Made by a program: the position numbers and the translations under genes. This document shows positions 1,142 to 27,380 of a DNA stretch of 31,107 bases, piece after piece; position 1 is the stretch's first letter, and every line of letters begins with the position of its first letter. Source of the DNA: a virus; IMG/VR virus record IMGVR_UViG_3300009093_000100, positions 1 through 31,107 of that record, one strand, 5' to 3'. The notes below the pieces were generated by a model that saw only the letters and a program-made list of their open reading frames with translations, searched no databases and was not told the origin of the DNA.

Positions 1142-1351
1142 TCAGTTCTCCGTTGGTGGGTGGTTTGCCGCGATAAGCAATAGCGCGGCGTATGGCTCGA
1201 GGGCATTGGTATACCAGTCATAAACATTTATCGTTGCAGGACCGAAACGTTGTTTTAAGCCCCTCGTTCCGAAGAATCCGAGTGGAGCGGGATCACGATT
1301 GCCCCCAGTGATATGAATTCCACGGTACATAAAACCAACGCAATCGCTCAT
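1142..1351 (-). CDS. Small hypothetical protein (69 aa) coupled to the primase-helicase
   Basis: The ATG at 1349-1351 overlaps the TGA of the primase-helicase gene (ATGA), and a strong GGAGGA lies six bases upstream, so the start is well supported. The protein runs MSDCVGFMYRGIHITGGNRD and ends with a hydrophobic patch (ALEPYAALLLIAANHPPTEN). It has one cysteine and no clear signal peptide; the C-terminal hydrophobic stretch is short for a membrane span. Its stop is one base before the start of the exported protein gene. I do not recognise it. Confidence 0.65.
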   Translation of the reverse strand: MSDCVGFMYRGIHITGGNRDPAPLGFFGTRGLKQRFGPATINVYDWYTNALEPYAALLLIAANHPPTEN

Positions 1352-3693
1352 ACGGCTCCTCCGGCGATGTCTTTGCGTGCTTGGGCCAGCCACTTCGGAT
1401 CGGGCTTCCAATTCACGTCGATGCCTCGGACGTTGCGGTTGTTTTTCCAGATCTGCTTCAAGTGCAATTTGTGGTGCTTGAGCAAACTGGCAAACTTGTT
1501 CGGGCTACGCGGCATACCGCCGACGCACCATTCTGTGATCACTAAGAGCTCGTCGCGTGTGATCCTGAAGTCTAGAGTGTTGACCAGATCGATGATTAGC
1601 TCACGATACGGTGCGTACTTGGTATTCTCGAGCGGGGACATTTTGTCCGGAGTCACGGAGCTTAAGTGATCCCAGAAAAACTCCAAGTCCCCACGTAGTA
1701 GAGCATCACTCACGGTGTCGATCGCTGTGCGCGAAATATCGATGAGCTGGTCGCGTGCGAGCGATACTAGCGGGGTACGAGCGACGATTTTGGAAGCAGG
1801 GTACGCGCGAAGATACGCGTAGAACGCTTCGAGCTCATTGGGGATGTCTTCTTCGATTTCTTTGACCGAGAGGCTGATTTTGTGTTCTTGATATGGTCCG
1901 ACGTTGAATCTGCGGTCATCGCTGCTTACCTCGACAGGGGCGGGTTTATTGCTCGCAAAGATCATGTTGGAATGATTAGGTGCCATGTAGGCTTGGGTGT
2001 ACATCTTGCGGATCGAGATCGTCGGTTCGACGATTAGATTCTTGAGCTTGGCCGTGATCTTGGTGTGGTATAGAGACCTACCGGCCTCGATTTCATCGAT
2101 GAAGACGATGAATTTATTCTCCATGTATCCGGTGAACTCGCTTTCGATCTCTTCCATGCGTTTGGACACGGTGTTTTGTGCCCCGAATATCGGGGTCAGT
2201 ATGCTATGAAACAGCACACCCTTGCCGGTTCCTTGGGTGCCTTGCCATACCCACGCCGTGCCCGAGGCCTTGAGATTCTGGACGATTACTGCGAGCCAGT
2301 TCATGAAGTGATGGATCGTCGCAGCATCGTTGCCGAGCACGTGCGAGATTACTTTCATGATTGTCGGCGGGACAGAGCTCACCGTAGGTAAGCTCTGTAA
2401 CTGGAAAAACGTGCTAGGTTGGTAGGTGTTGATCTTCCGGCTCTTGGTGTCGATCACGTATTGACACGTCGGATCCCATGTGAGTGTCCAGTCTGGAACG
2501 ATGTCACCGAGGGCCTGATCGTACTGCGCCAAGAATTGACGCAATTGGTTTTCAGATTTGGCAGGAGCCAGTACCAGCTGATCAGTGAGGCTGTTGTACG
2601 TGCCGTTGTAGTAGTTCCCGGTGCTGAAGTCACGGAAGGCGAGGTGAATTTCACCCTTTGAATTCGGCTGATAGCTCAGAGTCTGGGCAATCTTGGCCGA
2701 TTGTAATTTGGCCCAGTACTGCGGGAGTAAGTCTTGAGTGCGATAGGTCGGCTCGCCCTTGAAGTTATAGATGAACTCGGGGGAGTTCTCGGGATGGTAG
2801 TAAGCCCAACTGTCACCGCCGTTGAGGTTGAAGTATACAAATCCGCGTTCGGTCTTCGAGGCCGTAATGCTTGCAGCGTCGGGATTGGATAGATACTCGA
2901 TTTCACCTTGGAACTTGAACTTGGCAGCTCGGATCTTAGGCAATCCGGCCTTGGCACGAAGGTCGGCGATGATTTGTGAGATCTGGTTGCGCTGTACCTC
3001 TTGAGCCTGAAAGCTCGTGGGTAGGGTCAGTACTCGATTCAGACGGGCATTGAATGTGATTCGGTTACCTTTGGGGTAGGGGTCTTTGATCCTCGGTGCG
3101 AGTGCTGGCGGTGCGATGTAGAGGAGCTTGTCGTTTTGGCACGTGGTGACGTCCAGAGGCCAGCGCAGACTGGTGTTGGTTTTGGTGAGTTTGAGCTGAG
3201 AGTTGAGCTCTGGGACCGCGAGATTAAGTCCTAGGAGCCAGCGTTTGAGTTGTGCTGGCTGGTATTCACGGTCGAGCTGTATGAAGATGTGGCAGCGCAG
3301 ATCCGTTGCGCTCTCGAGTCCCATAGAGCTTGACCATTGAAGGATGTAATCGGTGTCCTGCGCTCCGACGGCTTTGAGAAAGGCATCCACGGACTGAAAC
3401 CCAGAGATACCGTCTAGGTCCAGACAGATCCAGTTGGTGGGGGTGTTCGGGTCAGTTGATCCAGCTCGGGATTCGAGTTGTAACTTGCGTTGTAATTCAC
3501 CCTTTAGCAGACATGCGCCTTTTGCTGCGTACTTGCAGATGTGCTGATAAAGCTCGTAGAGGCTGGTTGGATGCTCTTCGTACGAGGTTACCTCGTACAC
3601 GAAGGGGTAAGGGTGTTTGATTAATGTTCCATCTGCTGCTAGCTCGTAAGCCTTGACGATCGGCTGTTTTGCAGCGAGGAAGTTAATCTTCAT
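1348..3693 (-). CDS. Primase-helicase: AEP-type primase fused to SF3 (D5-like) helicase
   Basis: This 781-residue protein should start DNA synthesis and unwind DNA at the phage replication fork. The N-terminal third carries the three signatures of archaeo-eukaryotic primases/prim-pols: a DxD metal motif (CLDLDG, Asp92 and Asp94), an xH motif (RCHIFIQL, His135) and a third acidic motif (RWPLD, about 177-181). The C-terminal half is an SF3/D5-like AAA+ helicase: Walker A GTQGTGKG (485-492), Walker B FIVFIDE (528-534, Asp533-Glu534), then SNKPAPVEVSSDDRRF (581-596) with the polar sensor and arginine residues of the family. The ATG at 3691-3693 overlaps the upstream regulator gene by 11 bases. 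It lies beside the AT-rich, DnaA-box-bearing region 4007-4362, which fits a replication module. No DNA polymerase is in the window, so the phage may use that of the host or encode one elsewhere. Confidence 0.92.
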   Translation of the reverse strand: MKINFLAAKQPIVKAYELAADGTLIKHPYPFVYEVTSYEEHPTSLYELYQHICKYAAKGACLLKGELQRKLQLESRAGSTDPNTPTNWICLDLDGISGFQSVDAFLKAVGAQDTDYILQWSSSMGLESATDLRCHIFIQLDREYQPAQLKRWLLGLNLAVPELNSQLKLTKTNTSLRWPLDVTTCQNDKLLYIAPPALAPRIKDPYPKGNRITFNARLNRVLTLPTSFQAQEVQRNQISQIIADLRAKAGLPKIRAAKFKFQGEIEYLSNPDAASITASKTERGFVYFNLNGGDSWAYYHPENSPEFIYNFKGEPTYRTQDLLPQYWAKLQSAKIAQTLSYQPNSKGEIHLAFRDFSTGNYYNGTYNSLTDQLVLAPAKSENQLRQFLAQYDQALGDIVPDWTLTWDPTCQYVIDTKSRKINTYQPSTFFQLQSLPTVSSVPPTIMKVISHVLGNDAATIHHFMNWLAVIVQNLKASGTAWVWQGTQGTGKGVLFHSILTPIFGAQNTVSKRMEEIESEFTGYMENKFIVFIDEIEAGRSLYHTKITAKLKNLIVEPTISIRKMYTQAYMAPNHSNMIFASNKPAPVEVSSDDRRFNVGPYQEHKISLSVKEIEEDIPNELEAFYAYLRAYPASKIVARTPLVSLARDQLIDISRTAIDTVSDALLRGDLEFFWDHLSSVTPDKMSPLENTKYAPYRELIIDLVNTLDFRITRDELLVITEWCVGGMPRSPNKFASLLKHHKLHLKQIWKNNRNVRGIDVNWKPDPKWLAQARKDIAGGAV

Positions 3694-15873: not shown

Positions 15874-16284
15874 ATGTCCGCCAATCAGAAATTGGTCCTG
15901 AACCGCGACTACACCCTCAACACCCTGACGGGGCACTCGATCTTCTTCAAGAAGAACGTGCCCACGCACGTACCGCGTCCAGCGTGGCGCGACGCACTCG
16001 CGATCGGTGCCCTGCCCCCAGATGGCGTGCCGGAAGAGCCCGAGCCCGAGAAGGCGTATACGCCTCCGCCCAGCGACCCCGACGAGCGCGCCGAGCAGAT
16101 TCTCAAGGCCTTCGGTGTCATCGTTGCCAAGAACGAGCGCGAGGACTTCACCGCCGCCGGGCTGCCTACGAACGCTGCAGTCGCTGCGCTGACTGGTTTC
16201 AAGGTCCAGTCGAAAGAAGTTTCGGCAGTATGGCAGCAATACAAAGACTCTCTTTCTGAAGAGACTTCGGGCGAGCGCGCGTGA
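15874..16284 (+). CDS. Head-tail region hypothetical protein (136 aa)
   Basis: The ATG at 15874 has GGAG seven bases upstream; an in-frame ATG six bases earlier is less well spaced. The N-terminal part (KLVLNRDYTLNTLTGHSIFF, then KKNVPTHVPRPAW) is strand-like. A Pro/Glu linker (DGVPEEPEPEKAYTPPPSDP) follows, then a helical C-terminal domain (ERAEQILKAFGVIVAKNERE to VWQQYKDSL). Such small proteins between coat and adaptor genes are common in this phage type. The stop overlaps the GTG of the next gene. Function not recognised. Confidence 0.65.
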   Translation: MSANQKLVLNRDYTLNTLTGHSIFFKKNVPTHVPRPAWRDALAIGALPPDGVPEEPEPEKAYTPPPSDPDERAEQILKAFGVIVAKNEREDFTAAGLPTNAAVAALTGFKVQSKEVSAVWQQYKDSLSEETSGERA

Positions 16285-16970
16285 ACACCGGAGAGCTCAA
16301 AGATCGTTTCCGCAGTGACGTACGGGACACCGATCCCGACACACCGCTGTGGAGCGACGCTGAGATCTACGATTACATGGACGACGCGCAGAAGATGTTC
16401 TGCCGTCTCCAAGGCGGCATCGCGGACACCACGACGGATAGCGTTTGCAAGATCAGCTATTCCGCGAACGATCAGTTCAAGACGATTTCGCCGCTGATCC
16501 TGAAAATTCGGCAGGTAGTGCGTGAATCCGACCAGCTCGAAGTTGAGATCCTCAACTTCGAAGATCTGCAGATGCACGTTTACGCCGACGACTACGGATT
16601 CCAGCCCCCGTACAAAATCGATGCGACGCCCGGGGAAGTTCGGGCGATTGTCACCGGCATGCAGGAAGGCCAGATCAGGTTGGTGCGCTTTCCGACCGCG
16701 GCCGACTCGCTGCGGCTCACCGTATACCGGATGCCGCTACTGACGATCGACACGACAGGTTCTCAGAGCTTCGAGATTGCTCCCGAGCACGTGCGTCCGC
16801 TGCTGTACTGGATGAAGCACCTCGGGCATCTGAAACAGGATGCTGAAACTTACGACAAGGGCCGCGCCGACATGTTCGAATTGCTGTTTCGGCAGTACTG
16901 CGATCAGGCCAAAGCGGAGCGCGAGAAGCGCGAACACAAATATCGGACGGTCGGATATGGTGGCTTGTGA
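16281..16970 (+). CDS. Head-tail adaptor protein (229 aa)
   Basis: The GTG start overlaps the preceding stop (GTGA). The protein opens MNTGELKDRFRSDVRDTDPD followed by PLWSDAEIYDYMDDAQKMFC, the helical start typical of phage adaptor/connector proteins that sit below the portal. A strand-rich middle (LRLTVYRMPLLTIDTTGSQ) and a helical end (ALLYWMKHLGHLKQD-like and QYCDQAKAEREKREHKYRT) follow. It would close the connector in P22 gp4 fashion and hold the tail. Position after the head genes supports this. Confidence 0.75.
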   Translation: MNTGELKDRFRSDVRDTDPDTPLWSDAEIYDYMDDAQKMFCRLQGGIADTTTDSVCKISYSANDQFKTISPLILKIRQVVRESDQLEVEILNFEDLQMHVYADDYGFQPPYKIDATPGEVRAIVTGMQEGQIRLVRFPTAADSLRLTVYRMPLLTIDTTGSQSFEIAPEHVRPLLYWMKHLGHLKQDAETYDKGRADMFELLFRQYCDQAKAEREKREHKYRTVGYGGL

Positions 16971-17047: not shown

Positions 17048-17073
17048 CACTTTACTACATCTGGAGATGAGCT

Positions 17074-17525: not shown

Positions 17526-17579
17526 TTGAGCAAGCTTACTGAGAGCGAACGCAACGAACTTTTTAGGAGATTCCAATGA
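17526..17579 (+). CDS. Possible 17-residue micro-peptide
   Basis: A TTG start with AAGGA eight bases upstream opens a frame for MSKLTESERNELFRRFQ, whose TGA overlaps the ATG of the next gene (ATGA). The only other content of this 64-base gap is the AGGAG of the next gene, which is inside the frame. The coupled junction copies the pattern of real neighbours, but a frame this short can arise by chance. Confidence 0.25.
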   Translation: MSKLTESERNELFRRFQ

Positions 17580-18088
17580 GCGGCGTTACTGCATTCAAAA
17601 CCATTTCCGGGCGTACCCCCCACGACTTCGACACGGCGCTTAACGCTGCGCTCTCCGATGGGTATCAGCCGATTCCGGGCAGCGGCCCCTACAACATGGA
17701 CCTCGGCGGCGTCACCTGCATGACGCTCGTGCAGGGATCTGTCGTTCTAGTGGGCGCAACCGGTGCGACTGGCCCGACTGGCCCGACTGGCCCGACTGGC
17801 CCGACTGGTGCGGTCTCGACGTTTTACGGCGAAACCAGCGATGCCGCTAACGTGTACACGGCTACGATCGCGGGCGCGACTTTGACAACCGGCACTGTCT
17901 TCGCGATCAAGTTCGATCACGCCCCGACTGACGCCGCGACGCTGAATGTCAACGGCCTCGGTGCAAAGGCCATTGTTGTGTCGACAGGCGCAGCGATTAG
18001 CGGTCCCCAAGGCATCGACGGTCAGATCGCGATGCTGGTGTACAACGGCACGCAGTTCGTCTACGTCGTGCAGCCGAATAACGCCTAA
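17576..18088 (+). CDS. Collagen-like tail-fibre-type protein (170 aa)
   Basis: AGGAG lies seven bases before the ATG. Residues about 60-78 are a short collagen-like run of Gly-X-Thr/Gly-Pro-Thr triplets (GATGATGPTGPTGPTGPTGA), which should form a trimeric triple helix or stalk. The N-terminal 58 residues (MSGVTAFKTISGRTPHDFDT) are an anchor-like domain. The C-terminal 90 residues are a strand-rich head with HAPTDAATLNVNGLGAKAIV, a stretch typical of phage fibre tips. It probably is a small trimeric surface fibre. Confidence 0.75.
   Translation: MSGVTAFKTISGRTPHDFDTALNAALSDGYQPIPGSGPYNMDLGGVTCMTLVQGSVVLVGATGATGPTGPTGPTGPTGAVSTFYGETSDAANVYTATIAGATLTTGTVFAIKFDHAPTDAATLNVNGLGAKAIVVSTGAAISGPQGIDGQIAMLVYNGTQFVYVVQPNNA
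17764..17807 (+). repeat. 9-bp tandem repeat coding the collagen-like triplets
   Basis: The unit GACTGGCCC occurs about four times in a row with no base change, flanked by diverged copies. Identical DNA, not only identical protein, indicates recent slippage or expansion, and copy number here can be expected to vary between relatives. Confidence 0.75.
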
Positions 18089-18093
18089 CTCCG

Positions 18094-18483
18094 ATGCCGA
18101 CCGGCCCCACCAGTTTTCCCGGCGCGCTCGACGCGTTTCCGACTGTCCTATCGACGACGTTCGAGGATGACAGCGGCTTCGAGCACGACCTGATTCACGA
18201 CTGGGAAATGACCGCGATCGCGGCGTTGCAGACGCTGTGCGGTATCGCGGGTTCGGCAGTCACCACGACTTTTCAGTACCGCATTACCACGATGGAAGGA
18301 TACTTCGCCTCTGGGATCCTCGGCACGGCGCACGGCGGTACTGGTAACAGCACCGGCAATGCCGTTACGGCGACCAAACTCGCAACTGCGCGCAACATCA
18401 ATGGCGTTTCGTTCGACGGGAGCGCCGATATCACGATCGCCACCAGCGGTGGCGGTGGTTCCTCGTTCAACTTTTTCGCGTGA
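18094..18483 (+). CDS. Tail-fibre protein with T4-fibre-like repeat (129 aa)
   Basis: The second half reads GILGTAHGGTGNSTGNAVTA followed by TKLATARNINGVSFDGSADI, the well-known phage tail-fibre shaft sequence found in T4 gp37-like and lambda-like side fibres. The first half is helical (FEHDLIHDWEMTAIAALQTL). It ends in a Gly/Ser-rich tail (TSGGGGSSFNFFA). At 129 residues it is far shorter than a full fibre, so it is a short fibre or a fibre segment that combines with neighbours. No ribosome-binding site is clear; coupling to the previous gene (five bases apart) is likely. Confidence 0.78.
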   Translation: MPTGPTSFPGALDAFPTVLSTTFEDDSGFEHDLIHDWEMTAIAALQTLCGIAGSAVTTTFQYRITTMEGYFASGILGTAHGGTGNSTGNAVTATKLATARNINGVSFDGSADITIATSGGGGSSFNFFA

Positions 18484-19023: not shown

Positions 19024-20115
19024 ATGGCCATGCTCGACATGGGCGGCTTCGCGGCGACGGGTGGCGCGCCGCTCGTAGACCGATTCGGCCGTTCGCTGCG
19101 CGACACGCCGCAACTGCAGATTCCTATTCCCAAGCAGCATTCGTTCATCGCCTCAGGCGGCGAGGCTGGCTTTGTATTGGCGGCAGTTCCCATGCCCAAT
19201 ACATTGCAGGTCTATCGCAATCGCGTATTGGTTCATCCATCTGTGTATTCCCTATCCGGCGTGAGCGTCACCCTCGCCAACGCGCTGACGTATTACGTCG
19301 GCGACATCATCGACGTGAGCTACCTGACGATTTCTCCCATCGTTGGCGCTGCGGCGCTCAAGCCGGCCGGCGGCTATGCGGCGCAGGTTTTGGCGGATTC
19401 GCCAGAAGTATACATGTTGGCAAATGATACAAGCGGCACAGTGATGACGGACAGTTCCGGGCATGGGCGGCATGGGACATACAATTCCGGGGTATTGTTG
19501 AACCAAACGGCGCTGCGAGTCGGCAGCAGCGGTTGCATTGGGATGAGTTCAAATTCCTATGCCGCTAGAAATACCAGCCTTCCGTCCATGGGTGCCGTCA
19601 CGTTCGAGTGCATCATCCAATGCACAGGCGGAGGTTCGGTATATAGCGCCGCAATGCAGGATCAACAAAACACGCGCGCGATTGCCTACTTTGGAGCGAG
19701 CCGACATCACCTGTCGCTCATAAATCACAACAACGACTCAAGCTCGCCAAACAATACATTCGGCACAATCGTGCATGCGGTGCTTACGGTTTCCGGAGGT
19801 ACGTGGAATCTGTACGAAAACGGCTTGCTCGCAGCGACGGACTCATATGCAACCGTTCCCGATACCACGAACATGACGTTTCTTGGCGATACGGTTTTCC
19901 CCGGTAGCTTTGGTTGGATCGGTTACGGCAGCGATTTTGCCGTCTACTCGTATGCTCTTTCTGCGACTCGCATCGCGACGCACTACGCGAGCATGTTCAC
20001 CTTTGCTGGCGATCAAGATGCTGGTGTCGTTAGCGCTGGCACAGGCATCTCCATAAAGTCGATTGGCGGCGTGAGCGTAATTTCCGCACAGCAACCGGGG
20101 GTGTTCTCGCCATGA
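19024..20115 (+). CDS. Tail fibre / receptor-binding protein with LamG-like lectin domain (363 aa)
   Basis: The N-terminus, LDMGGFAATGGAPLVDRFGR, matches that of the next gene and is likely to be the virion anchor. Residues about 40-110 form a small strand-rich domain. Residues about 125-325 look like a concanavalin A/LamG-type jelly roll, judged by VYMLANDTSGTVMTDSSGHG at its start, VTFECIIQCTGGG, LTVSGGTWNLYENGLLAATD, and FAVYSYALSATRIATHYASM at its end; this is the usual order in phage sugar-binding domains. The last 35 residues have VVSAGTGISIKSIGGVSVIS. It probably binds host surface sugar. The stop overlaps the next ATG. Confidence 0.82.
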   Translation: MAMLDMGGFAATGGAPLVDRFGRSLRDTPQLQIPIPKQHSFIASGGEAGFVLAAVPMPNTLQVYRNRVLVHPSVYSLSGVSVTLANALTYYVGDIIDVSYLTISPIVGAAALKPAGGYAAQVLADSPEVYMLANDTSGTVMTDSSGHGRHGTYNSGVLLNQTALRVGSSGCIGMSSNSYAARNTSLPSMGAVTFECIIQCTGGGSVYSAAMQDQQNTRAIAYFGASRHHLSLINHNNDSSSPNNTFGTIVHAVLTVSGGTWNLYENGLLAATDSYATVPDTTNMTFLGDTVFPGSFGWIGYGSDFAVYSYALSATRIATHYASMFTFAGDQDAGVVSAGTGISIKSIGGVSVISAQQPGVFSP

Positions 20116-20885
20116 GCCTGGATATGTTCGGCTTCCCCGTCGCCTCGCAGCCGGTGTTTACCGACCGGTATGGTAATCCGCTGACGAAGTTGAAAACTTC
20201 TGGCGGCACAGCATTGACTAACCCAATGACGACGGCGGGTGATCTCATCGTCGGCGGTAGCGGCGGTACGCCGACGCGGTTGGGAATTGGCTCAAACGGA
20301 CAGGTGCCTACGGTGTCGGGCGGTGCGCTCGTCTTTGCGACGCCTGCGGCAAGCGGGATACCTTCAGGAACGTCGTTCCCCGGTTCGCCAGCGACGAACA
20401 CTATTTTTTTCCGCACAGATTTAGGTATGCCGTTTTACTACGACGGCACGCGGTGGCTTTCTTGGGGTGCTCCGCTCAAGTTCCGACTTGGATTTTACAA
20501 GAGCGCGTCCTCACAGCCGTTCTCTGCGACCGTTAGCGACGCCATGATGAACACTGCGCCATTTACGGGCGGCGGCAGCGATATTTGGCTCATAAATCAC
20601 CGCGTGTGTTTCCTTGTAAATGGCGGCGGCAGCGCCTTGAATGGCTCGAACAAGTGGGTCGGGAACTTGCACAAATACGACACGGCCCTTACATCAACGA
20701 CGATCGCAACAATCAACATTGATTCGGGCTCTTCTGGGGTCGCTCGCATGATCGACACCACGATCAATGCGCTTCTCGACAATGGCACGCCCCATTTCTT
20801 CATCGAGACGGACTGGACGAGGACCGGATCACCAGGATCGATCTATACGGCTGAAGAAATCGCTTATCGGATCGTAGCGGTTTGA
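20112..20885 (+). CDS. Tail fibre protein sharing the N-terminal anchor (257 aa)
   Basis: The N-terminus LDMFGFPVASQPVFTDRYGN closely follows that of the previous gene. Next comes the shaft stretch ALTNPMTTAGDLIVGGSGGT, then RLGIGSNGQVPTVSGGALVF, seen in many phage fibres. A tip domain (residues about 80-257) includes IFFRTDLGMPFYYDGTRWLS and ends TAEEIAYRIVAV. The ATG overlaps the preceding stop (ATGA). It is probably a second, alternative receptor-binding or stalk protein with the same attachment point. Confidence 0.78.
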   Translation: MSLDMFGFPVASQPVFTDRYGNPLTKLKTSGGTALTNPMTTAGDLIVGGSGGTPTRLGIGSNGQVPTVSGGALVFATPAASGIPSGTSFPGSPATNTIFFRTDLGMPFYYDGTRWLSWGAPLKFRLGFYKSASSQPFSATVSDAMMNTAPFTGGGSDIWLINHRVCFLVNGGGSALNGSNKWVGNLHKYDTALTSTTIATINIDSGSSGVARMIDTTINALLDNGTPHFFIETDWTRTGSPGSIYTAEEIAYRIVAV

Positions 20886-22004: not shown

Positions 22005-22359
22005 CTTGATCTCGCAGTGCTTTACCGCGGCGACAGTTAATTGGCCGTCGACGTTTCTGATACTCGGTGTCGCCATGACGTTGATCGTCCTGTGGAAAGT
22101 ACAGAAGAACGTAAAAAACAAAGTCGACCTGTCAGAACTGCTGATCGATGCCGACGGCAAAGCCAGCTGGACGAAGATCACGGCTATTGGGGCGTTCCTT
22201 TTTTCCACTTGGGGGTTCGTGGTTCTGATAGAGCGCGACCACATGACCGAGGCCTTGTTCGGTCTTTATATCGCTGTATACTCCGGGGCACCGGTTGCGT
22301 ATCGCCTTGCGGCGACGCGCCATCAACCATCCGAAAGCGCAGAGGATCCAAAGCCATGA
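21997..22359 (+). CDS. Membrane protein, probable holin (120 aa)
   Basis: Three hydrophobic segments are visible: STFLILGVAMTLIVLWKV (about 18-35), WTKITAIGAFLFSTWGFVVL (about 58-77) and LFGLYIAVYSGAPVAYRLA (about 87-105), with a charged hydrophilic tail. This fits a class I-like holin that opens the inner membrane for the endolysin. It overlaps the endolysin stop by eight bases and is joined to the next small membrane protein by ATGA. The other candidate for holin is the 44-residue protein at 21341. Confidence 0.7.
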   Translation: MGDLISQCFTAATVNWPSTFLILGVAMTLIVLWKVQKNVKNKVDLSELLIDADGKASWTKITAIGAFLFSTWGFVVLIERDHMTEALFGLYIAVYSGAPVAYRLAATRHQPSESAEDPKP

Positions 22360-22514
22360 TTATCGAATTCCTGTTGTTTGGCCTTCTGGTTGTGATTGTA
22401 TTCGCGGCCTACAAGCTGCACTACATCGGTGCGATTCTCGCGGAAGCGAAACTCTTGGTCGGTGCGTTCAAAGACGATATCGTCAAAGCGGTCGACAAGA
22501 ACAAAACGCCATGA
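22356..22514 (+). CDS. 52-residue membrane protein of the lysis cassette
   Basis: Coupled to the probable holin (ATGA) and to the spanin gene (ATGATG). The product starts MIIEFLLFGLLVVIVFAAYK, one membrane span, and continues with an amphipathic helix (GAILAEAKLLVGAFKDDIVKA) and a basic end. It may be a second holin/antiholin or a regulator of spanins. No family recognised. Confidence 0.6.
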   Translation: MIIEFLLFGLLVVIVFAAYKLHYIGAILAEAKLLVGAFKDDIVKAVDKNKTP

Positions 22515-22879
22515 TGGACTTTTTGAAAGCGATTTGGGGCCACCTGCCCGGTCGTGCGTGGCTATACCTCGGTATAGCCATCGCCGGGTTCGCTTTCAAA
22601 TGGTGGTATGACGATCGGCAACAGAGCATCGGTGCCAAGGCCTGCGAGGACAGTATCGCCAGCGCCATCGCCAATGCGCGCGCCCAAGTAGCACGCGAAG
22701 CCGCTTCGGAGAACAAAACGCTTGATGCGCAGCTTGCCGAAAACGACCCGCTTATCGTTCAGTGGAGCAAAGAATATGCGCAACCCGGCAGTGATGATCC
22801 TAATTGCAAGCCTGCTGATCCTCAGCGGGTGCAAGCCGTCAACGCGGCCCATAGACCCCGAAGCGAAGGATCCCGTTAA
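22511..22879 (+). CDS. Rz: Inner-membrane spanin subunit (i-spanin, Rz-type)
   Basis: The 122-residue protein has an N-terminal span (about 15-30, RAWLYLGIAIAGFAFKWW) and a periplasmic helical part (GAKACEDSIASAIANARAQV to NKTLDAQLAEN). It is placed after the endolysin and holin. The next gene, the outer-membrane lipoprotein, starts inside it in another frame, the classic Rz/Rz1 arrangement. It fuses inner and outer membranes in the last step of lysis. Call rests on topology and genetic nesting rather than on sequence identity. Confidence 0.8.
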   Translation: MMDFLKAIWGHLPGRAWLYLGIAIAGFAFKWWYDDRQQSIGAKACEDSIASAIANARAQVAREAASENKTLDAQLAENDPLIVQWSKEYAQPGSDDPNCKPADPQRVQAVNAAHRPRSEGSR

Positions 22880-23069
22880 TCTGCATTGCGATGCGGTGTG
22901 CCCCGCTCCGTGTCCGGCGTTGCCGGATTGGGACGGGACGTTGAACGAGGATCGAGTCTCTGCGCTGCTGAAGATTTGGGGTAGCATGTACGTTGAGTGC
23001 GATATGTATCGCCAAGCCTGCGTGCAGTGCATTCGTCGCGGTGTAAAGGCGGGCGTCATCAAGATGTAG
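22776..23069 (+). CDS. Rz1: Outer-membrane spanin lipoprotein (o-spanin, Rz1-type)
   Basis: From the ATG at 22776 (GGAG nine bases upstream) the product begins MRNPAVMILIASLLILSGCK, a type II signal peptide with lipobox LSGC and lipidated Cys19. The mature part starts Pro-rich (KPSTRPIDPEAKDPV) with Cys38, 42 and 46, and has a helical end (RVSALLKIWGSMYVECDMYR). It overlaps the i-spanin gene by 104 bases in another frame. At 97 residues it is longer than lambda Rz1 (60). An earlier ATG would bury the signal peptide, so it is rejected. Confidence 0.82.
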   Translation: MRNPAVMILIASLLILSGCKPSTRPIDPEAKDPVNLHCDAVCPAPCPALPDWDGTLNEDRVSALLKIWGSMYVECDMYRQACVQCIRRGVKAGVIKM

Positions 23070-23078
23070 AGACCTGTA

Positions 23079-25520
23079 ATGGCCTACCGTAAACACCTAG
23101 CGTACAGAACCCACAAGCTGTACCCGGCGCTAGGTGTTGGGGACGTATTCCCCGCGGGCTGGTTAGATGAGACTTTCGGCATCGCTGCGGTCAAGGGGCG
23201 CGGTCTTGTCGCCCCTGCCGGGATTTCTCCGACCGATGTTGTCTATCACCCGTACGTTGCGTTTTATTACCAGTTCGTATCCGAGATTGGATACGGGTGG
23301 CTAGACGATCGCCTCGGCACTGCGGTCGCTCAGCTAAAGAAGCGGTTTATATTTCCGACTGGTTGGTTCGAAGAGCATATCGGAACCGGCACGGCGATTC
23401 AGCACCGTATCCAGCCGGCTCCACTTGGATGGCTCGATGAGCAGATTCCTCGGGCGCACGTCGACATCCACTTTAACAATATTCGTCTGACTGGCTGGCT
23501 CGATGACAGAGTTAGCGTCTACGCGACCGTACAGTGGAAGCGGCGCACGATCAGTTTTTTCGGCCAAGTCGATGAGCGGTTCGGCACTCCCGGAATCGTT
23601 AATCGCAATCGCTATGTCTACGAGCACCCACAGGGGTATGCCGACGATGTGGTGTCGCCGAACGCAATGGTTATCAATCGCAACCGCGTCATGCGCCCAG
23701 CGCCGTGGCAGGATGATCGGTTTGACTTCTTCGACGGAGCAATCCGCAATACCGGCCGAGCGTTGATCGAGTCGGGCTGGAGAGATGAGAAGTTCGGTGC
23801 CGGGACTTTTATCGCGTACAAAAACCGTTCGCTACTGCTCCACGGGTGGGTTGACGAAAGCTTCGGCAACAGCGTGCCGGCGAATCTTGCGTGGGGGGTT
23901 TACCCTCCCGGCATTCGCGTAGACGAGCGGATTGGCTTCCCGCGGCTTGCCAATACTCGGCGTTTTCTGCACCTGTTTGGCATCTCAAGCACAGATGCCA
24001 CCGGACGGCCGTTCGTATCGTTCCGCGTTCGGAACGTCGTACAGACTGCCGGCGCACACCCCGACGAAGTGTTCGGGTTTCGTACGGAAGCCCGGCATAA
24101 CCCGTACCCAGTACACCCGACTAGCTGGATCGATAGCGATCGGCAGTTTGGCTGGCCTGCGGTCTTCGCACACTCACACAACCTGCATCCGAACCCGATC
24201 GTTTCGATCGATGTGTTCGGACTGCCCTACGTGGTTAACCGTAACCGGGTGGTTTTCGTACCTTCGCCGGATCTGCGCGAAGCGTTCGGCAATACCCACA
24301 TCGAGCTACGTAATCGGCATCTACTCCCCGTCGGGGCGAGCACCGAATTTTTCGGCGCTGCGCTTGTGCAGTGGAGCACGCGGTACGTTTATCCGAGCCA
24401 TTTCTCGGTGCCGGCGATTTCGACCTACCATCGGATTTCAGAGTCCGTCGTTGACGGGCCCCCAGAGGACCAGAACGTCTACCCGGCTAGTTGGGACGAC
24501 TCACAGTTCAAATACGGCTCGGTCACGGTGTACATCCATGGCATCTTCGCTTCCGGATGGTCCGATGAACACTTCGGCTCGATAAAGGTACTCAACAACA
24601 CGATCGACTTGCAGAAACACTCGATCGTCAACCTCAAACAAGTCGGCACGCCGATCCTAATCTACACTCGGGGGGTCTTTCCGAGTTCGATTCCGCCTGC
24701 GCCGCCTATCGGCAAACGTGGCGATAGCGATCAGTTCACGTCGCTTCCGCGCGTTGATCCGTTCCATATCTATGCTCCGTTCGGAGAGCTTACGCCGCCG
24801 GGCTACATCCCCGGTGGTCGCGGGCTGTATATGGACTCGCTATTGCCGGAAGGGTATCTCGCCTCTCGGTGGCCGTGGTTCGGACACCAGACTATAACCA
24901 ACAAGAACCGAGCGGTCTTCGTGTCTCCGTCGAACTTCGGCGGAACTGTGGGGGATAACACATCGGTCGACTGGAAGACGCACTACGTTCGCCCGAACGG
25001 CATCAAGCAGTGGCGTGTAGGGCTGGTGCGTTTCCTCAACGTGCCGCAATACATCAACTTCGACACGTACCATCTTGGGTTCATGGATGAGAGCTTCGGT
25101 TCTGCAGCCGTCGCCCCACCCGTAGACGGCAACAACGGAGTCCTTGTGCCCTCGCTCGGCGTAGATGAGCGTTTCGGCGGGAACGTCATCGATCTTAAAA
25201 ATCGCAACCGGTTGCCCCCGAGTCTCGGGCTGGATGAAAGCTTTGGGTTGGCGATCTTTGGCACTACCCGGTACTACAACCTGTCTGGCTGGTTCGATGA
25301 GAACCTGATCTGGACCACTGAGTTCGTCTCGTACCGGATTCGCCACCTGCTTGCGACCGGTTTCATCGACGACTCGTTCGAGCGCATCGATGATGACCCC
25401 ATATGGTTCGGCGAGCGTATGCGCGTGTCGACCAAGGCCTACGCACTGCATGACAAAGGGTTCGTGGATACGAAATTCGGTGTGGCAGTTGTAAAACACG
25501 AACACGAGTGCTGTAATTGA
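23079..25520 (+). CDS. Tandem-repeat tail protein with about 23-residue GWxDExFG units (813 aa)
   Basis: From near residue 27 to the end the protein is built from more than 20 diverged copies of a short unit that begins GW-x-D-[DE]-x-F-G, followed by a strand (xxxV) and an arginine-containing stretch (NRNR or KNR). Starts at 73, 95, 117, 139, 162, 186, 209, 233 and 256 give a period of 22-24 residues; examples are GWLDETFG, GWLDDRLG, GWVDESFG and LGLDESFG. Later copies are more diverged, and a non-repeat insert lies near 500-620 (Pro-rich, PPAPPIGKRG). A solenoid, such as a beta-helix, is the natural guess. It is large, late, and next to tail genes, so a tail or appendage protein is likely. 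Its stop overlaps the next TTG. Confidence 0.75.
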   Translation: MAYRKHLAYRTHKLYPALGVGDVFPAGWLDETFGIAAVKGRGLVAPAGISPTDVVYHPYVAFYYQFVSEIGYGWLDDRLGTAVAQLKKRFIFPTGWFEEHIGTGTAIQHRIQPAPLGWLDEQIPRAHVDIHFNNIRLTGWLDDRVSVYATVQWKRRTISFFGQVDERFGTPGIVNRNRYVYEHPQGYADDVVSPNAMVINRNRVMRPAPWQDDRFDFFDGAIRNTGRALIESGWRDEKFGAGTFIAYKNRSLLLHGWVDESFGNSVPANLAWGVYPPGIRVDERIGFPRLANTRRFLHLFGISSTDATGRPFVSFRVRNVVQTAGAHPDEVFGFRTEARHNPYPVHPTSWIDSDRQFGWPAVFAHSHNLHPNPIVSIDVFGLPYVVNRNRVVFVPSPDLREAFGNTHIELRNRHLLPVGASTEFFGAALVQWSTRYVYPSHFSVPAISTYHRISESVVDGPPEDQNVYPASWDDSQFKYGSVTVYIHGIFASGWSDEHFGSIKVLNNTIDLQKHSIVNLKQVGTPILIYTRGVFPSSIPPAPPIGKRGDSDQFTSLPRVDPFHIYAPFGELTPPGYIPGGRGLYMDSLLPEGYLASRWPWFGHQTITNKNRAVFVSPSNFGGTVGDNTSVDWKTHYVRPNGIKQWRVGLVRFLNVPQYINFDTYHLGFMDESFGSAAVAPPVDGNNGVLVPSLGVDERFGGNVIDLKNRNRLPPSLGLDESFGLAIFGTTRYYNLSGWFDENLIWTTEFVSYRIRHLLATGFIDDSFERIDDDPIWFGERMRVSTKAYALHDKGFVDTKFGVAVVKHEHECCN

Positions 25521-26770
25521 CGTCGGTGAACAAGACGCTGCCATTCCCGTTGCCCGTTCTCGGAGTCGACGAGCTCTCGCACGAGACGTCGCTGCCGCGC
25601 GGAGCTGTTCGCAGCATGACCAATATCGATGTGGGGCGCACTGGCAAGATGCGGCTGCGCCCCGGTTTTGTGCGGTCTATTTCGGCCCCGGCGCATAGCA
25701 TCAGATACATGCCCCAGCGCGGGATTACGCTGGTCGGCAAGGGGAACGCCCTCTACCAGCTGGACACGAGCAGCATGGCGACCACTTTGGTCGCCATGCT
25801 GAATTCTGGGCATCCGCTCGAGTACATCGAGTATAACGGCCACGTCTATGCGTCCAACCGTACCAGTCTGGTCTGGCTCCCCGCAGATGCCAATACTTGG
25901 CGCACCGTCGGAGTTCCCGTACCTGACGCGCCTACGGTTGCGGCTTCCTTGACAGGGGATCTACCTTCGGGCCGGTACGGGGTTACGATAACGAAACTCG
26001 ACGACCGCGGCGAGGAAAGCGGCAGCGCTACGGTCCAATTCGTGGACCTCCCCAACGGCGGGGGGATCCAGCTTTCGAACCTACCGGTTTTTTCGGGTTC
26101 GGTGGCGATCTATCTCACTGCGGCGAACGACGAGAACTTGCGGGTCTCCGAGACCATTCCTGCAGTGTTTAGCACCTATCTGGCTTCGTTATACCCCCAA
26201 GGACGCCCGCTAGAGACGTTCTCCATGGTGCCGCTGCCCCCGGGGGACTTCATCCGCTGGCATAACGGTCGTCTGTATACGGCCGTCTACGATACCCTGC
26301 GCTGGACCGAAGCGCTCCGTGCTCATGTACACGACGCGTCCGCAGATCTCATGAAGTTCAGCGGATTCATTTCCTTTATCGAACCCGTAGTCGACGGCAT
26401 CTACGTCGGCGACTCCCGCGGCGTCTGGTTCCTGAAAGGCGGAGACCCCGATGAATTCGCTCCTGTGCGCGTCAGTCCGTGCCGTGCTGTGGCTCGGTCT
26501 AGCATTTCTGTGCCTCCCGAGCACTTCAATCCGAAGCAGGTTCAGACTTCGTACCCGTGTGCTGTCTGGCTGAGTACTTCGGGCTATGTTGTCGGCACGG
26601 CTGGCGGTACCGCCATCGAGCTTCATGCCGATCGTATCCGTGTGCCCGGCGGGCTTGTTGGGCGCTCGCTGTTTTTCTACTCGGAGGGTCGCAAGCAGAT
26701 TGTGACTCCTGTAAACTCCAACACCACTGCGGCCTATGGCTTGGCTGCGGACTCGACTTATACACCCTGA
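25517..26770 (+). CDS. Tail protein, possible beta-propeller-like (417 aa)
   Basis: The TTG start overlaps the preceding stop (TTGA); a GTG nine bases later is also possible. The protein has RGAVRSMTNIDVGRTGKMRL followed by RPGF, a conserved opening of phage tail/tailspike-associated proteins, then repeated strand pairs such as GKGNALYQLDTSS, GHVYASNRTSLVWL, RWHNGRLYTAVYDTLRW and YVGDSRGVWFLKGGDPDEF, suggestive of blades or a hub. The role is probably a tail tube, hub or stabiliser subunit. A possible Ig-like insert is near 140-215. Confidence 0.68.
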   Translation: MTSVNKTLPFPLPVLGVDELSHETSLPRGAVRSMTNIDVGRTGKMRLRPGFVRSISAPAHSIRYMPQRGITLVGKGNALYQLDTSSMATTLVAMLNSGHPLEYIEYNGHVYASNRTSLVWLPADANTWRTVGVPVPDAPTVAASLTGDLPSGRYGVTITKLDDRGEESGSATVQFVDLPNGGGIQLSNLPVFSGSVAIYLTAANDENLRVSETIPAVFSTYLASLYPQGRPLETFSMVPLPPGDFIRWHNGRLYTAVYDTLRWTEALRAHVHDASADLMKFSGFISFIEPVVDGIYVGDSRGVWFLKGGDPDEFAPVRVSPCRAVARSSISVPPEHFNPKQVQTSYPCAVWLSTSGYVVGTAGGTAIELHADRIRVPGGLVGRSLFFYSEGRKQIVTPVNSNTTAAYGLAADSTYTP

Positions 26771-26780
26771 GGAGATTCCC

Positions 26781-27380
26781 ATGCTGCACCGTGATTTGAT
26801 CAAGCACGCCGGCGAGTTCATGCGGTATCTCCGCAACCGGCAGTATGAGCGCACCGCCGACGGACTCCTGTTCGCCAGAGCAGGCGTCATCGCCACGGGC
26901 ATGTACAAGCACGACATCAACGGCGAAGATGTTCGGTACGATAAGAACAATCTTCCCGACGAGGGGCTGAAATACCTGCTCTCCGTCGGCGTATGCGCCG
27001 GCACGCAGTTGGCAGCGTGGTATCTGGCCCTTTACGGCTCGAACTACACCCCGACCAGTACGCTTACCGGGGCAAGTTTCCCGGCGACGGCTGGCGAGAT
27101 TACGAGTGGCACTGAGGGGTATACCCAGAGTACGCGTCCGGTCTGGACTCCCCCCGGCTCGGTGACCTCAACCACGGTGAACAACTCGGCGTCGAAGGCG
27201 GCATTCACGATCGCGACAGCCAGCGTGCTGGTGATCAACGGTGCGGCTATGCTGTCCAACGCCACTAAGGGCGACGTCACGGGCAAGATCGTGTCGGCGA
27301 CGAAGTTCTCGGCAGCGCGCAACGCCTATAACACCGACACGTTCAATCTCGAGTACGACGTCACTCTGACCTCGTCTTGA
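26781..27380 (+). CDS. Tail-region structural protein (199 aa)
   Basis: The ATG has a perfect GAGGAG eight bases upstream. The N-terminal part is helical and charged (HRDLIKHAGEFMRYLRNRQY), followed by GVCAGTQLAAWYLALYGSNY and a Thr/Ser/Ala-rich beta part (PTSTLTGASFPATAGEITSG through TKGDVTGKIVSATKFSAARN). Strand-rich ends of this kind are found in small virion proteins. It is coupled to a cluster of virion genes on either side. Family not certain; it resembles the structural proteins found next to tail-tube genes in such phages. Confidence 0.68.
   Translation: MLHRDLIKHAGEFMRYLRNRQYERTADGLLFARAGVIATGMYKHDINGEDVRYDKNNLPDEGLKYLLSVGVCAGTQLAAWYLALYGSNYTPTSTLTGASFPATAGEITSGTEGYTQSTRPVWTPPGSVTSTTVNNSASKAAFTIATASVLVINGAAMLSNATKGDVTGKIVSATKFSAARNAYNTDTFNLEYDVTLTSS

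Follow-up and report, generated by a model that had tools for sequence, protein, structure and literature searches.

A divergent member of the phage repeat family PHROG_11272, encoded next to a nozzle-like gene, as a probable tail structural protein

Introduction

The window analysed here, the whole 31,107-nucleotide stretch of a virus record, encodes at 23079–25520 on the plus strand (ATG at 23079 and TGA stop at 25518–25520 in the ORF check) an 813-residue protein tiled by 27–31 divergent units, mostly 22–25 residues apart. On sequence comparison this protein is a divergent, collinear member of PHROG_11272, a catalogued but unstudied phage family of which it represents a divergent branch, rather than a new family. 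Judged from conserved gene order and from the mosaicism seen in its relatives, it is very probably a structural protein of the tail. A full-length member of the family, gp51 (YP_164315.1), is encoded by F116, a classical transducing phage whose group has variously been called podovirus, siphovirus-like and myovirus-like owing to its thin tail, and the members of PHROG_11272 are good candidates for making up this tail.

Results

The autocorrelation of the 813-residue sequence peaks at a lag of 23, and the period is 22–23 residues. To avoid circularity, a 19-column unit model was trained on the relatives alone and then run on the window protein, in which it found 27 units with a score of 191.9, against 14.9 ± 7.0 for 300 shuffles (maximum 40.5), that is, about 25 standard deviations above them. 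When refined on the window protein itself the unit model gave 31 units, again at spacings of mostly 22–25 residues, and the more than 20 short repeats of GWxDExFG type that a sequence-only reading had proposed are therefore borne out. A simple motif HMM (HMMER) was too insensitive to detect the units in this protein. The strict motif G[W..]x[DE][DE]x[FIL] occurs ten times where 0.03 occurrences are expected, and the acidic GWxDExFG form makes up about a third of the units, the remainder being degenerate. Across 59 proteins, 2415 units give xPxG[FI][DN]SxxFGxPx[VI]xNRxRx[IVL] as the general unit; acidic residues at unit positions 6–7 have a mean of 0.86 in the window protein as against 0.35 in the relatives, and the GWxD[DE]xF form is a local flavour of the window protein.

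The array falls into blocks, all on the plus strand. The first (23148–24389, residues 24–437) holds about 18 units at a spacing of 21–25, and the second (24480–24683, residues 468–535), which follows a spaced stretch, about three. An insert lacking clear units (24699–24851, residues 541–591) carries the family signature PR[VL]xPHTIYA, here in the form PRVDPFHIYA, and the third block (24852–25517, residues 592–813) comprises about 8–9 units and contains a conserved stretch around RMRV.

Pairs of units inside the window protein are 16% identical on average, adjacent units being no more alike than distant ones, and no tandem or direct repeats were found in the gene at the DNA level, in agreement with the strong DNA divergence described earlier. 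Slippage or recent duplication was rejected on the lack of a DNA repeat and on this comparison of near and far units. The collected relatives align collinearly with the window protein over nearly its full length and have invariant unit positions in common with it, and BLOSUM scores are 11.4 for aligned units against −2.9 for non-aligned units; since aligned units are so much more alike, the unit order must be old. This supports the earlier view that the architecture is ancient and maintained, and did not arise by slippage.

A direct tblastn search of the phage collection with the window protein gave no match, and no Pfam or NCBIfam model matches it. Relatives were gathered by way of the neighbouring Hc3 gene, through a distant match on an Acinetobacter plasmid, and by scanning contigs of viruses and bacteria, which yielded 129 sequences including the window protein, or 73 once close copies were removed. 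The PHROG_11272 profile matches residues 192–710 of the window protein (E=2.4e-23), and identity to the relatives is about 20–28%. The statement that no named repeat family has this pattern thus stands for Pfam and NCBIfam, and falls in so far as PHROG_11272 covers the protein and minor tail proteins of mycobacteriophages contain similar 23-residue units. F116 gp51 has the same 22-residue unit, and its gene likewise lies just before those for Hc3 and PHROG_8123; it differs in length (987 against 813 residues), is about 21–25% identical, and is set apart from the window protein by the acidic DE doublet in the latter's units. The closest relatives, at up to 28–29%, form an uncultured branch of IMG/VR contigs (L014–L017 and L119–L123), which shares NPYP and VPQYI-like stretches with the window protein and has a longer N-terminus and fewer acidic doublets. 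F116-type members end at the C-terminus in YIRPDGN...RKG; this end is absent from the window protein, and also from L015 and L017, and marks the F116 sub-branch rather than the whole family.

Family members contain 23–60 units each according to the unit model, and their lengths, from 813 residues (the window protein) to 1630, vary chiefly at the N-terminus. Carriers include Hollowayvirus phages and phages or prophages of Shewanella, Pseudoalteromonas, Acinetobacter, Variovorax and Acidovorax, and the hosts named in the relatives' records include these five genera as well as Pseudomonas, Psychrobacter and Alkanindiges. In each scanned phage locus the array is strong in this ORF only. On the Acinetobacter plasmid pANC7919.1 (L003:16418–20079) the homologue consists of two overlapping ORFs in different frames, two pieces of one gene split near 17050 that is whole in relatives such as L019, and a frameshift or sequencing error would account for the split.

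Repeats of comparable length are known from other phages. The PTGVPSRAAVGTPTI repeats of mycobacteriophage minor tail proteins (PHROG_13352, for example prophiGD08-3 gp66) have the framework PxGxxSxxxxGxPx[VI] in common with the unit described here. Relative L123 matches the mycobacteriophage repeat by tblastn (E=3e-5), the PHROG_13352 profile match has E=2.3e-6, and the mycobacteriophage repeat outscores all 2000 shuffles on the phage unit model; hhalign returned a probability of 0.7%, so that homology lacks profile–profile support. Unlike the window protein, the mycobacteriophage proteins have only about eight near-identical units, followed by other domains. One such minor tail protein, at L201:3845–5584, has about eight near-identical units of 23 residues, and 45 phage records match this stretch. 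These likenesses suggest that there may be a wider class of tail repeats, with homology unproven. A match to a Rhizobium phage carried no unit signal and was rejected.

The family profile also matches Crov588 (PDB 6nyr; E=1.6e-6 for the whole sequence, 0.003 for the best domain), an FNIP leucine-rich repeat protein which closes into a ring (PMC9525666). FNIP/FGxxFN repeats resemble the phage unit in their 22-residue period and in the similar spacing of P and FG, but they have an LRR leucine where position 7 of the phage unit is polar, and the unit model from 2415 units does not follow the LxxLxFGxxFN pattern. Pfam FNIP (PF05725) has no match in the window protein or in any of 18 members, and 38% of the shuffles of the FNIP unit score as high as the FNIP unit itself on the phage unit model. 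Membership of the FNIP/LRR class was rejected on the failed unit-level shuffle test and the missing Pfam match.

Structure prediction with AlphaFold2 gave unusable models, both for the whole window protein (18 sequences; pLDDT 28, pTM 0.17) and for a 371-residue segment of a relative (73 sequences; pLDDT 46, pTM 0.16), and both monomer models have almost no secondary structure. The solenoid or many-bladed ring of the sequence-only reading accordingly found no support here. Monomeric solenoids are commonly well predicted by AlphaFold2, so the failure leans toward an interlocked multimer: it would fit a chain unable to fold outside a multimer, shallow alignments could also account for it, and the low confidence, atypical of a self-sufficient solenoid, excludes nothing. 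Coevolution computed on pairs of adjacent units has its strongest long-range class at a separation of 22, a weak signal which is not decisive for stacking. A rival reading, in line with the earlier proposal of a ring, is a compact ring or collar in which a curved solenoid chain encircles the junction of adaptor and nozzle. The 22-residue period, the weak profile match to the ring-forming Crov588 and the position of the repeat gene next to the nozzle gene would all suit such a ring, whereas the FNIP results and the failed monomer predictions argue against it, and we consider it distinctly improbable.

The virus record carries a podovirus-type virion module with terminase subunits, portal and major head protein. 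The major head protein is followed by a PHROG_399 virion structural protein (16281–16970; plus strand, like all the genes given coordinates in this list), the counterpart of ORF014 of the related phage KPP25; two short tail-fibre-like proteins (17576–18480) with a collagen-like GPTG run and tail fibre PHROG matches; a LamG (concanavalin A-like lectin) protein (19024–20115; PF13385, E=4e-9), which is a candidate tip adhesin encoded about 3 kb upstream of the repeat gene; a further virion structural protein (20112–20885); the lysis cassette; the repeat gene; and the gene for the nozzle-like head closure protein Hc3 (PHROG_8040, 25517–26770). The window Hc3 has a TTG start, which overlaps the stop of the repeat gene by 4 bases. 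The N-terminus of the LamG protein resembles that of its downstream neighbour (19024–20885 for the two), both showing DMxGF...DR[FY]Gx.L, and tail tips perhaps dock by this shared end.

Hc3 lies downstream of the repeat gene in every one of the 70 non-redundant relatives whose sequence extends far enough beyond that gene, as the next gene in 64 and with one gene intervening in six, and the stop of the one and the start of the other usually overlap (by 1 base in 23 cases and 4 bases in 12). In L097, L101, L094, L098, L096 and L099 a gene of about 860 codons is inserted between the two. The window Hc3 is a homologue of chain K of the solved PDB entry 26fb, in which the PHROG_399 protein of KPP25 is chain T; since KPP25 Hc3 and the PHROG_399 protein are both chains of this entry, Hc3 is part of a virion structure. 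This gene order supports the association with the tail that had been proposed for the repeat protein. KPP25, and the regions examined of AP1, MetMV, Rollin and ctwe8250, have Hc3 without a strong repeat array.

Downstream of Hc3 the window encodes, on the plus strand, a PHROG_8123 protein (26736–27380), the next gene, as in F116 (gp53), and then a homologue of F116 gp54 (PHROG_11362, 27740–29767). A PHROG_12240 protein comes after these. In F116-like phages the downstream neighbours include a very large internal virion protein (PMC5217972), which would be in keeping with a repeat protein that is itself internal and is ejected with the DNA, for example as part of a trans-envelope tube. The repeat gene, however, lies in the part of the operon that holds the nozzle and fibre genes, its beta-type repeat is rich in G, P and aromatic residues, and mosaicism at the N-terminus is typical of exposed proteins; an internal role is thus very improbable.

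This mosaicism is seen in close pairs of repeat proteins, whose first 100–300 residues can fall to 0–60% identity while the remainder stays near 95%, and the drops coincide with exchange of the genes directly upstream. Over 441 pairs alike in the C-terminal 600 residues, identity of the first 200 residues has a Spearman correlation of 0.85 with the upstream gene, 0.68 with the C-terminus and 0.66 with Hc3. The correlation with the upstream gene is suggestive only, because the pairs are not independent and adjacent DNA is inherited together, and the linkage may reflect nothing but DNA proximity and common descent. For the C-terminus, identity tracks Hc3 (0.64) no more closely than it tracks the upstream gene (0.73). 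In 8P and on the Acinetobacter plasmid the upstream genes encode lectin-like domains, of F5/8 type C or of LamG type. A hypervariable end in otherwise nearly identical proteins, and the need of phiC725A for type IV pili (PMC5217972), could mean that the repeat protein is itself the receptor-binding fibre with its N-terminus as the adhesin. Against this, the variable part consists of the same 22-residue units as the rest and is linked in some phages to separate upstream lectin-like genes, and Pfam scans found no known adhesin domain. We regard this reading as unlikely.

Published micrographs bear on the form of the tail. In the F116-like phage phiC725A, which carries the gene and requires type IV pili for growth, the head measures 78 nm and the tail, thin and rigid, 66 nm, the latter being described as ‘tightly packed long fibers’ (PMC5217972). 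Y11, in which the repeat gene is the second ORF, was described as siphoviral, its tail measuring 72 nm (PMC10846135), and USP_18, which carries the repeat gene in a gene order of F116 type, was assigned to the Myoviridae from micrographs together with USP_25 (PMC7573221). Tails of 20 nm have been reported for the KPP25 relative CRPAP1904 (PMC13340246) and for JC1 (PMC9144972), which carry Hc3 or a head-closure gene yet are without the repeat gene; no repeat array was found in the 50 of 62 kb scanned for CRPAP1904 or the 41 of 61 kb scanned for JC1. Tails of 66–72 nm with the gene and of 20 nm without it are what an extended shaft predicts, in a contrast that draws on five reports and on phages which differ in many other genes too.

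The shafts of the adenovirus type, built as triple beta-spirals, have a 15-residue repeat with a G/P turn and alternating hydrophobic residues, and rise by about 0.87 Å per residue. The phage unit likewise is a short repeat with a G/P turn and alternating hydrophobics, of 22 rather than 15 residues, and at the same rise 35 units of 22 residues would span about 66 nm, matching the phiC725A tail; likeness and length are both a numerical lead only. If each unit were instead one turn of a beta-solenoid, the span would be about 17 nm. Tail length is not proportional to unit number, with 35 units for 66 nm against about 47 units for 72 nm in Y11.

Discussion

On the reading that we favour, the repeat protein is a structural tail part in a phage whose genes are of podovirus type, and its units of 22 residues would most likely form an elongated, probably multimeric shaft. 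The conserved C-terminal side of the shaft would bind Hc3, the constant nozzle protein that the following gene encodes, and the variable N-terminal side would carry exchangeable receptor-binding proteins encoded directly upstream, for which the F5/8C or LamG lectin-like proteins are candidates in some phages. Several shafts together would make up the thin 66–72 nm tail, or fibre bundle, of F116-like virions. That the protein is a shaft of this kind, linking nozzle to exchangeable tips in a long thin fibre or tail, we infer as a distinct possibility, if one somewhat short of probable. If true, a repeat fold without known structure joins a constant nozzle to exchangeable adhesins.

Our literature search found neither virion proteomics nor a structural map for the repeat protein, and the lack of proteomic evidence would also be in line with an assembly factor that does not enter the mature virion. 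The size of the protein, a unit order kept over wide divergence and the hypervariable end speak rather for a structural component, and of all the roles considered here we give that of an assembly factor the least credence.

Among the virion-module proteins of phiC725A and F116 that were tested, none matched a tape-measure or tail-tube family. F116-like phages might build a long thin tail with neither kind of protein, by fixing a single repeat protein to a podovirus nozzle for a roughly three-fold extension, a proposal that we put forward as doubtful. If it were true, the siphovirus or myovirus look of these phages would be a product of fibres.

Some further features of the window and of its relatives deserve mention. 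The window has no Rfam match or tRNA that we could find. On its minus strand, at 1348–3693, it encodes a large protein with matches to PHROG_24712 and to phage DNA primase profiles at residues 440–630. The lysis cassette is located within the tail genes, and directly before the repeat gene (22295–23069) overlapping frames encode an inner-membrane protein and a lipoprotein with an LSGC lipobox, a probable Rz/Rz1 spanin pair. Finally, a Methanosarcina virus (MK170447.1; L008:9971–11299) encodes an Hc3 homologue of 24% identity, and the nozzle family therefore extends to archaeal viruses.
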